From Alphaproteobacteria bacterium (lineage in GTDB: Bacteria; Pseudomonadota; Alphaproteobacteria; RF32; CAG-239), in assembly GCA_017939155.1 (NCBI GenBank), contig JAGAZZ010000021.1:1-64000 (forward strand): a DNA stretch of 64,000 nucleotides, read 5' to 3'. A program made the position numbers and the translations under genes. This document shows positions 35,983 through 37,857 of this stretch, in pieces. Under the pieces are notes generated by a model that worked only from the letters and a program-made list of their open reading frames with translations, was not told where the DNA came from and did no database searches. Within the stretch, counting starts at the first letter, position 1, and the number at the start of each line of letters is the position of its first letter.

Positions 35983-36079
35983 CTTAACTCAAAAAATTAT
36001 TTACTAAAAACATACACCTCATAACACAAAATTTCAAAAGCTACAACTGGATTTTTTCTAAAATAAGATAAAATGCTTT

Positions 36080-36298
36080 ACTTTTTCAAAAAAATTAAAT
36101 ACGCTCTACCTTGGATTTGGCGATAGCCTGTCTGGGGTGTGGAAACCTCTTCTGTATGCGTCTGTGTAAAGACGAAACTTTTGCACGCTTTCTGGTCAAG
36201 GACTGGAAGGCGGCAAAATATGCTTATATTCGGTTAATATGTCGCACTATTCATACAGATAGTTTCCAACTTCCAGTCGCCTTATCGGCGGCTTTTTT
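36080..36298 (+). ncRNA. Structured leader RNA with interlocking stems and terminator, upstream of the prepilin gene
   Basis: Two pairings interlock. GGAAACCTCTTCTGTATG (36141-36158) pairs imperfectly with CATACAGATAGTTTCC (36252-36267), and GACTGGAAG (36201-36209) pairs perfectly with CTTCCAGTC (36270-36278). The order A-B-A'-B' is that of a pseudoknot. B' abuts an intrinsic terminator stem CGCC/GGCG (36278-36290). GGCG at 36209-36212 could pair with the same CGCC, giving an antiterminator. A hairpin CGTCT/AGACG lies between A and B. The T-run ends 27 nt before the prepilin ATG. The 5' block around 36113-36142 resembles that in the leader at 2041-2075 on the other strand. The start is estimated, and no named family is recognised. 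Confidence 0.5.
36278..36298 (+). terminator. Intrinsic terminator in the prepilin leader
   Basis: CGCC-TTATC-GGCG is followed by GC and six T, 27 nt before the prepilin start codon. Confidence 0.6.
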
Positions 36299-36325
36299 AT
36301 TGTACTGATAATAGGGAGTTTTGAG

Positions 36326-36931
36326 ATGAAAAGAGATGAGCTTGGTCGTTCGATGATTGAGATGCTAGGCGTGTTGGCAATTGTGGGGATTTTATCTATT
36401 GGCGCAATTTCAGGTTTTCAAAAAGCGATGTTTAAACACAGACTGCAAAAGACAACCGAAGAATATAATATGCTTTTTCAAGATACATTGAAATATCATA
36501 AAGAACTCCTTGCTTTACGCAGAGGTCTAAAACCCGGTGAAGGAGGACATTACAGAATTGCCGAACTTTTGTACAATATGGGCATCGTACCGGCAATTTG
36601 GCAACGAAAAGGAACAGTTCTCTATGACCGTTTAAATAATCAAATTAATCCTTTTATCCGCAAAGAAAATAACAAATTAAATTTTGATATACACATCACC
36701 GCCAACGACACCTCTATTTTTGTTTGTGAAGCTATTTATCGGGATGTTTTTATGCAATTCAGTGACAATTTATATTATGTACAAACATATCGTTACGATA
36801 GCGATGGAGCAGGAAAAGGTGCTTTTCAGTATTTTGGCAACCTTTATTGCAATAGCACATCAAGAAAATGTGTCAGAGATATGACTTTGACTGATATTCG
36901 CAAGATGATAAATCGTGTGCGGTTATCATAG
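36326..36931 (+). CDS. Prepilin/pseudopilin-like protein with atypical cleavage context
   Basis: A 201-residue protein whose N-terminus MKRDELG-RSMIEMLGVLAIVGIL is a type IV prepilin signal. A short charged leader ends in Gly7, Glu lies at position +5, and a hydrophobic helix follows. Position +1 is Arg instead of the usual Phe or Met, and Leu at +3 is replaced by Met. The mature part has three cysteines (CEAIY, LYCNS, KCVRD), two probably forming a C-terminal disulphide loop as in pilins. It stands alone with its own leader RNA; no assembly genes are in the window. GGGAG lies nine bases before the ATG. Confidence 0.75.
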   Translation: MKRDELGRSMIEMLGVLAIVGILSIGAISGFQKAMFKHRLQKTTEEYNMLFQDTLKYHKELLALRRGLKPGEGGHYRIAELLYNMGIVPAIWQRKGTVLYDRLNNQINPFIRKENNKLNFDIHITANDTSIFVCEAIYRDVFMQFSDNLYYVQTYRYDSDGAGKGAFQYFGNLYCNSTSRKCVRDMTLTDIRKMINRVRLS

Positions 36932-37044: not shown

Positions 37045-37857
37045 ATGAGTTTTAAAGATTTAGGGTTAAGCGAACAAACTATTCAGGCCATTAACGATTT
37101 AGGTTATCAAGAACCCACCACCGTCCAAAAAGACGTTATCCCGTCTATCCTTGAGGGCAAAGATGTTTTCACAATTGCCCCCGGCGCCTGCGGCAAAACT
37201 TGTTCATACATTTTCCCGCTGGTTGACATTATTTCAAGAAAAAACGGACAGAATATTTTAATCATCACCCCCGGCGCAAAAGAATCCGTCAACATTTCAG
37301 ACAAATTTTCCGTATTTAATAAATATCACGCGGCAAGCGAACCGGCTGATGAAAACAACGCCGAAGAAAATACTGACAATGAAGCCAATGTCATCATCGC
37401 CACGCCAAAACTTTTGCTCGAAAACATTACTGAAAACAATCTTGACGTTTCAAATGTCAACATTCTTGTCGTAGATGACATTAATCTAATCAAGAAGAAC
37501 CGCCAACTGGCTAATCTTGAGAAAATTCTTGATATGCTTCCTGCTGAAAAGCAAAATATCGTTTTCACCAACCGCCGCTCTAAAGAAACACAAAACACAT
37601 TAGACAAGATTTTAAAAACCCCGGCTGAAATCAAAATTGATAAAAATAAAGAAAGCGAAGTTGAAGGTCTTGCTCAAAACGAACCGGTTTTACCAACAGA
37701 GCCCGCAGAAACTGCCAAAAAACCTGAACGCCGCAAAACAAAACCGCGCCAAGAAAACACGCAAGATAGAAAAGCTTTAGAGCTTGCCCGTCGTTATAAA
37801 GTTTTCGGCAAAAAAACACCCGCTTTTTTACTTGAAGACGCCAAAGCAGTTTCTTAA
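37045..37857 (+). CDS. Truncated and degenerate DEAD-box helicase relative
   Basis: The N-terminal Q-motif region is clear (SFKDLGLSEQTIQAINDLGY, then PTTVQKDVIPSILEGKDV). Motif I reads APGACGKT. Motif II should be DEAD but is VDDIN, and motif III (SAT) reads TNRR. Nothing corresponding to the second RecA domain with HRxGR follows. After residue 195 the sequence is a charged tail rich in Lys, Arg and Glu. Only one RecA-like domain is present in 270 residues, so strand unwinding is unlikely. An RNA-binding or ribosome-associated role with or without ATP binding is possible (inference). No frameshift is visible; the ORF looks maintained. Confidence 0.7.
   Translation: MSFKDLGLSEQTIQAINDLGYQEPTTVQKDVIPSILEGKDVFTIAPGACGKTCSYIFPLVDIISRKNGQNILIITPGAKESVNISDKFSVFNKYHAASEPADENNAEENTDNEANVIIATPKLLLENITENNLDVSNVNILVVDDINLIKKNRQLANLEKILDMLPAEKQNIVFTNRRSKETQNTLDKILKTPAEIKIDKNKESEVEGLAQNEPVLPTEPAETAKKPERRKTKPRQENTQDRKALELARRYKVFGKKTPAFLLEDAKAVS

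Follow-up and report, generated by a model that had tools for sequence, protein, structure and literature searches.

A leader RNA distantly related to C4 antisense RNA and fused to a transcription stop signal upstream of a prepilin gene

The prepilin locus and the parts of its leader

The window, by which we mean the whole stretch of 64,000 nucleotides that was analysed, belongs to the 1.78 Mb genome of an uncultured gut alphaproteobacterium (tool-estimated completeness, 100%). Between a rarA-like gene and a prepilin-like gene lies a leader of ~190 nt, whose predicted fold stands out from shuffled sequences (z -5.7; 0 of 200 shuffles as good). The first-pass annotation of this DNA had assigned the leader to the prepilin gene, and that assignment was borne out. 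The features of the locus are as follows, with phage names (a1, b1, a', b') for parts equivalent to those of phage C4 RNA.

35982 down to 34654, minus strand: rarA-like gene, named from its sequence
36077 to 36105, plus strand: weak promoter-like site (TTTACT, 17 nt, TACGCT), read by eye
36113 to 36133, plus strand: 5' hairpin P1, the first of the hairpins in the a1b1-like half, from the sequence and its homologues
36134 to 36149, plus strand: hairpin P2 (36134-36138 with 36145-36149), A1 lying partly in its loop and partly beside it
36141 to 36146, plus strand: A1, equivalent of phage a1; its partner is the linker A1' at 36262-36267
36151 to 36158, plus strand: A2, the b1 equivalent, copy-specific in sequence; its partner is A2' at 36252-36259
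36159 to 36174, plus strand: hairpin P3 (CGTCT with AGACG)
36179 to 36218, plus strand: hairpin P4, an alternative fold that sequesters strand B
36201 to 36209, plus strand: B, 5' strand of the C4-like closing stem, pairing 9/9 with B' in 56 of 56 leaders
36210 to 36245, plus strand: hairpin P5 (GCGGC with GTCGC), whose internal loop is A-rich; the first of the two hairpins in the C4-like fold
36246 to 36263, plus strand: hairpin H2, whose loop is A2' (the b' equivalent)
36262 to 36267, plus strand: linker A1' (the a' equivalent), in the position of the phage P1 a' linker
36270 to 36278, plus strand: B', the 3' side of the closing stem, also used by the terminator
36275 to 36298, plus strand: intrinsic terminator (AGTCGCC TTATC GGCGGCT, then a T-run), stem 36275-36281 with 36287-36293
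36314 to 36320, plus strand: Shine-Dalgarno sequence GGGAGTT, complement of AACTTCC at 36268-36274
36326 to 36931, plus strand: prepilin-like gene (201 aa, GRSMIEMLGVLAIVG), the presumed controlled gene, one of a family of paralogues in its own genome

Two interlocking stems had been described in the leader, and both are there. Stem A consists of two helices, GGAAAC at 36141-36146 with GTTTCC at 36262-36267 and TCTGTATG at 36151-36158 with CATACAGA at 36252-36259, and stem B pairs GACTGGAAG at 36201-36209 with CTTCCAGTC at 36270-36278 in 9 of 9 positions. Because the strands follow one another in the order A-B-A'-B', the stems cross, as the proposed pseudoknot geometry has it. The strand B' had been said to adjoin the terminator stem; the relation is closer than that, as the two overlap by 4 nt.

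Upstream of the leaders, a promoter-like score of at least 9 of 12 was reached in 22 of 56 homologous regions, compared with 10.8 in shuffles, and in 20 of these 22 the end of the -10 box lies no more than 1 nt from the start of the match; the window's own site scores below 9. Beyond the prepilin-like gene, an ORF at 37045-37857 resembles the N-terminal domain of DEAD-box helicases, at a length of just 270 aa, in its translation read by eye.

Copies of the leader and the genes behind them

A DNA search of the window's own genome gave seven clear leader copies. The covariance model R1 was built from these seven, which therefore match it by construction, and from that genome it returned 13 matches at E <= 0.001 plus a weaker one at 0.011. 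The second model, R2, was built from a divergent subtype found mostly via R1. It located five divergent-subtype copies, four of them absent from the R1 matches, plus C40:44530, and it recovered copies of the window subtype at E 9e-14 to 3e-9. Two more prepilin leaders were read by eye, one of which (C3:54599) is R1's weak match. The genome thus holds at least 18 copies by the models at E <= 0.001, and about 20 when those read by eye are included.

R1 has matches in 26 of the relatives set's 38 genomes. At E <= 1e-4 it recognises the leader in 131 of the order's 153 genomes, and many relatives have several copies ahead of surface-protein genes. In a sample of 337 genomes from the class, 27 have a match, and the other 310 provide a negative control. 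From the 110 loci L009-L118, 100 were searched, giving 111 matches; 103 were carried forward after removal of duplicates, one antisense match, and short weak or partial matches. Assignment to subtypes T4 and T5 was by eye. A pattern search of named genomes yielded 99 homologous stretches, 80 of which are listed as loci, in records titled Alphaproteobacteria, proteobacterium, Pseudomonadota, Rhodospirillales, Rhodospirillaceae or Azospirillum, many from ruminant gut. The same kind of search found the leader pattern in 0 viral contigs.

Some leaders occur in tandem or as close pairs (G000 C49:13995-14424, L014/L018; G002 C80:50609-51108, L100; G004 C5, L103; L231; L240), in some cases with two leaders ahead of one gene. 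One leader of the T3 subtype (G000 C44:9426-9583, L293) has no ORF of at least 50 codons behind it; it may be a relic or a C4-like sRNA without a gene of its own.

In 89 of 99 distinct leaders, an ATG that opens a frame of at least 60 codons lies 7-42 nt past the end of the match. Pfam assigned the 87 downstream proteins to OMP_b-brl (18), OmpA_membrane (9), Opacity (6), PilS (5), HTH_3 (5) and Surface_Ag_2 (4), with glycosyltransferases, autotransporters, EcoRI_methylase and others among the further classes; 19 of the 87 carry a prepilin motif. The prepilin family itself has 18 matches in the window's genome, and nine of these genes were found, by eye and by the models, to have a leader of the superfamily upstream. 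Eight other prepilin genes (G000 loci L247-L251, L253/L256, L257 and L258), which lack the leader, are preceded by a different, common upstream element, namely CTCCATAAAGGTTGGTTTATTTTA.. or a variant of it, with an inverted repeat (for instance CATAAACCTAGGTTTATG) after it, close to the start codon. This element is possibly a second regulatory class for the prepilin family. Short leaders, several of them without P3, occur at L019, L020, L094, L096, L101, L105, L106, L112 and L240, ahead of small helix-turn-helix-like proteins (MRTNFNSTHNKR.., MTQTEET..) that may themselves be regulators, controlled in the same manner.

Covariation and mutually exclusive folds

Covariation of stems A and B among homologues had been proposed as a check on the first description, and it was found. 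On A3, a sequence-only (MAFFT) alignment of 53 of the 56 distinct leaders of at least 84 bits (the near-duplicates L057, L061 and L072 were left out), A1:A1' is paired in 99.4% of cells with 5 of 6 pairs doubly changed, and all 477 cells of B:B' are paired, with double changes at 4 of the 9 pairs. The base of P5 (99.2% of cells, 4 of 5 pairs) and P3 (87.7%, 4 of 4 counted pairs) behave similarly, compared with 31-44% paired in slid controls, and the whole structure was matched by 0 of 500 shuffles. When double changes were mapped on a tree built without the tested columns, they fell on 32 branches for A1, 8 for B:B' and 9 for P5, and on 0 or 1 branches after these helices had been slid by 1-3 columns.

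The second helix of stem A, A2:A2', is hypervariable. Among 45 distinct strand pairs from the 56 leaders, the mean Watson-Crick run is 6.98, against 3.66 with partners exchanged (z 24), and 43 of the 45 have a run of at least 5. The helices are also kept in the divergent subtype T3 despite its different sequences (15 sequences, 89.3% paired, slid controls 32-48%).

The 3' half forms a nested fold in which, as in C4, a closing stem encloses two hairpins. Its 20 pairs are formed in 95.0% of 1056 cells, 13 of them are doubly changed, and 0 of 500 shuffles did as well. H2, the second of these hairpins, is paired in 84.4% of cells, a level reached by 0 of 500 shuffles, and covaries; of its four pairs, the outermost is broken in 31 of 53 leaders. 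P2 is paired in 92.1% of cells, yet its covariation is no better than in shuffles. The terminator is paired in 98.1% of cells in homologues.

Several of these elements cannot coexist. The strand 36210-36214 has two alternative partners, one being P4's upstream half and the other P5's downstream half. Its two central positions vary, and changes there are accompanied by changes in both partners, so that pairing with both is retained in 52 of 53 and 51 of 53 leaders. P4 also engages strand B, with at least 7 of 9 bases paired in 52 of 56 leaders. Its mean energy is -19.6 kcal/mol, compared with -13.2 kcal/mol when halves are exchanged between leaders, and the variation within inner P4 consists mostly of one-sided changes. 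An earlier suggestion was that GGCG at 36209-36212 competes for CGCC. That pairing is possible in the window, but all four pairs are present in just 31 of 53 homologues, and we rejected it as the competing pairing; the conserved competitor is instead the upstream half of P4.

The alternative to the terminator that had been proposed is supported by B' itself, a strand common to B:B' and the terminator stem. Since B' overlaps the terminator, sharing AGTC with its stem, the two are mutually exclusive, and in 27 of 56 leaders the B:B' run reaches one or two bases deeper into the terminator arm. In preQ1-I and fluoride riboswitches, which are pseudoknot-controlled attenuators, a pseudoknot strand likewise competes with an intrinsic terminator; the competition is alike, whereas the crossing stem in the leaders would be a target-antisense pairing. 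In the window, P4 plus the terminator gives -76.4 kcal/mol, whereas the fold with B and B' held out gives -54.0, to which B:B' contributes -13.4 without a pseudoknot cost. The fold with the terminator (OFF) is therefore ~9 kcal/mol better than the sum for the fold with B:B' closed (ON), and the leader is predicted to be mostly OFF without a trigger.

A third partner of B' is the ribosome site. Among the 99 distinct leaders, 89 bear an ATG, and these provide 83 distinct combinations, in which the Watson-Crick run between B'/linker and the Shine-Dalgarno sequence averages 4.98, compared with 4.35 after permutation (z 5.2; 0 of 20000 permutations as high), and reaches at least 6 in 28 of 83 versus 14.4 expected, a moderate effect that related sequences inflate. 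This helix is part of the window's extended minimum-energy fold. Strand B (36201-36209) is itself Shine-Dalgarno-like in the subtypes read, so that B and the true ribosome site (36314-36320) compete for B'.

Kinship with C4 RNA and the proposed control of the downstream gene

The window leader matched no Rfam family at cut-off, and neither C4 nor sRNA-Xcc1 even at E up to 10; SRP, tmRNA, 6S and RNase P RNA were thereby rejected. A weak window match to RF02968 (DUF3800-IX; E 0.0085) rests mainly on the terminator hairpin and was set aside, as was a conserved upstream ORF, since the ATG of the window's 5-codon frame in P5 is not kept in homologues read by eye.

The divergent leaders revealed the relationship. 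Their best-scoring family is sRNA-Xcc1 (RF02221), with 51.7, 49.8, 43.5, 40.6 and 38.3 bits against a cut-off of 53; the best of these has E 1.7e-6, and matches to the whole model (1-87/87; E 1.7e-6 to 0.16) were obtained in 13 of 16 loci scanned. The best C4 (RF01695) match, 25.1 bits, is below the cut-off of 45. The feature of a1 in a hairpin loop would correspond to P2, which is paired without covariation beyond that of shuffles, and c4-a1b1 (RF03163) matched one divergent 5' half at 30.2 bits (E 7.5e-4), again below its cut-off of 46.7. In the relatives set, 56 of 60 sub-threshold RF02221 matches fall inside leaders found independently by R1 or R2, those of the window subtype scoring 33-40 bits. 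Within the order, none of the 38 relatives-set genomes had an RF02221 match above cut-off; in the class sample 5 of 337 did. Seven such over-cut-off loci were read: in L301-L304 a target copy persists downstream, close to the ribosome site, and by eye there is no terminator like that of the leaders; L299 and L300 have weaker target copies; and L305 (56.2 bits) has, by eye, a terminator in the same place as the leaders.

The order of parts repeats that of phage P1. In the annotated phage P1 record, a promoter, a1, b1, C4, a2, and b2 at the ribosome site precede icd; the linker ahead of the final C4 strand is complementary to a1/a2, and the loop of the second hairpin to b1/b2. The leaders share with the C4 RNAs of phages P1 and P7 (RF01695, RF03163) the order promoter, a1, b1, C4, ribosome site, the closing stem with two hairpins, b' in the second loop and a' in the linker, and the upstream complements of a' and b' in that order. 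They differ in that an intrinsic terminator is built on the closing-stem strand B', P4 is added as an alternative to P5, there is no b2 (b' loop versus downstream region, z -0.6), the a2-like complement of linker/B' falls on the ribosome site (z 4.1), and the genes that follow are host surface genes, not icd/ant. R2 did not match phage P1, and the link to C4 therefore runs through intermediates. C4 is reported to be excised by RNase P and to cover ribosome sites with its b' loop (PMC5320573). The same source describes many C4-like sRNAs in Acinetobacter baumannii; its group 1 resembles the leaders in the number of C4-type copies per chromosome and in variation concentrated in the target-recognising loop, although those are processed sRNAs, whereas the leaders bear terminators and precede surface genes (PMC5320573). 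sRNA-Xcc1 is reported upstream of symE in Xanthomonas integron cassettes (PMC12444791).

We conclude that the leader genuinely folds as an RNA and that it is distantly related to C4, with a transcription stop signal fused to it. Because no Rfam cut-off was reached, we do not file it as a member of C4 or sRNA-Xcc1. No description of such a leader was found in the literature searched, which lay largely outside subscription papers, or in the searchable portions of PMC11109978, PMC8632094, PMC12444791, PMC2864571 and PMC5320573. What we call new is a C4-type antisense RNA serving as a terminator-bearing leader, a C4-derived attenuator; C4-type antisense RNA itself is known.

We consider it fairly probable that the leader is an antisense-RNA unit of the C4/sRNA-Xcc1 type that now serves the prepilin gene as an attenuator acting in cis, and the leaders before surface-protein genes probably act as on/off switches. 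In such a unit, stem A would join the target copies in the 5' half, A1 and A2 (phage a1 and b1), to the antisense segments a' and b', and stem B would be the closing stem of the C4-like fold, which with P5, H2 bearing A2' as its b' loop, and the linker A1' would make up the 3' half. In the OFF state, A1 and A2 would be paired with A1' and A2', P4 would hold B, and B', left free, would allow the terminator to form; in RNA that reads through, B' could mask the ribosome site. In the ON state, the C4-like fold would close B:B', P4 would yield to P5, the terminator would be blocked and the ribosome site freed. The trigger would be an RNA-RNA event, the recognition of A1/A2, perhaps RNase P cleavage as in phage C4. 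That OFF is the default, that expression follows the fold and that an RNA-RNA event switches it in this direction is what we infer.

The first-pass annotation had spoken of control by a ligand or a protein, which our results do not support: the conserved parts fit the C4/sRNA-Xcc1 antisense-RNA architecture, and GGDEF and CsrA genes were not found in the genome. An orphan riboswitch class, our own first working idea, was given up after the comparisons with C4/sRNA-Xcc1. A metabolite riboswitch, in which the A-rich P5 loop binds a small molecule that favours P5 and B:B' and so prevents termination, would account for the terminator/antiterminator competition, the conserved internal loop and the presence of one leader type ahead of many genes. 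We nevertheless judge it unlikely. The sRNA-Xcc1 model has the A-rich P5 loop as well, so that descent from C4 can explain it, the targets have no common metabolic theme, no Rfam riboswitch matched, and A2/A2' is copy-specific, which favours RNA-RNA recognition over a common ligand. The c-di-GMP riboswitch in particular had no Rfam match, and this form of control, like that by CsrA, was rejected since the proteins are absent from the genome: the search for GGDEF domains found none, while it was positive in 8 of 14 control genomes, and that for CsrA was likewise negative, with 3 of 14 controls positive.

Conserved single-stranded bases near H2 and P5 could be the binding site of an RNA-binding antiterminator or a CsrA-like or ribosomal protein that selects the fold. 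In addition to the missing CsrA, we found no candidate protein, and homology to C4 requires none, making this very improbable. It is also conceivable, but quite unlikely, that the terminated ~190-nt RNA is the main product, a trans-acting C4-like sRNA that represses other transcripts while the downstream gene is expressed by leak-through only. The C4 of phage P1 is an antisense RNA that undergoes processing (PMC5320573), and some copies, such as that at G000 C44:9426, are orphans with no ORF. However, the ATG close behind 89 of the 99 distinct leaders and the co-variation of the ribosome site with the leader tie it to its own gene, and there is no downstream b2 target copy.

If the attenuator reading is true, uncultured Alphaproteobacteria that live with hosts, a lineage about whose gene regulation hardly anything is known, make wide chromosomal use of an RNA known mainly from phage immunity to attenuate surface genes, and C4 RNA, sRNA-Xcc1 and many leaders below Rfam cut-offs form one superfamily. 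One strand with three partners would then offer a clean system for following antisense recognition to the control of termination.

Among the nine own-genome copies compared, A2 and A2' of the same copy form Watson-Crick runs of 4 to 8, against 2 to 5 in nearly all cross pairs; a few cross pairs reach 6 or 7. A rather unlikely extension of the attenuator reading is that a genome holds up to ~20 mutually private RNA switches, in which the hypervariable A2/A2' would be the address and a released C4 RNA would flip only sister transcripts of the same locus. Were this so, each pilin or outer-membrane protein could have independent, heritable on/off states without DNA rearrangement. Elsewhere, the small alphaproteobacterial genomes G245 and G440 hold 12 and 11 sRNA-Xcc1 matches, so other lineages, too, carry C4-type RNAs in multiple copies.
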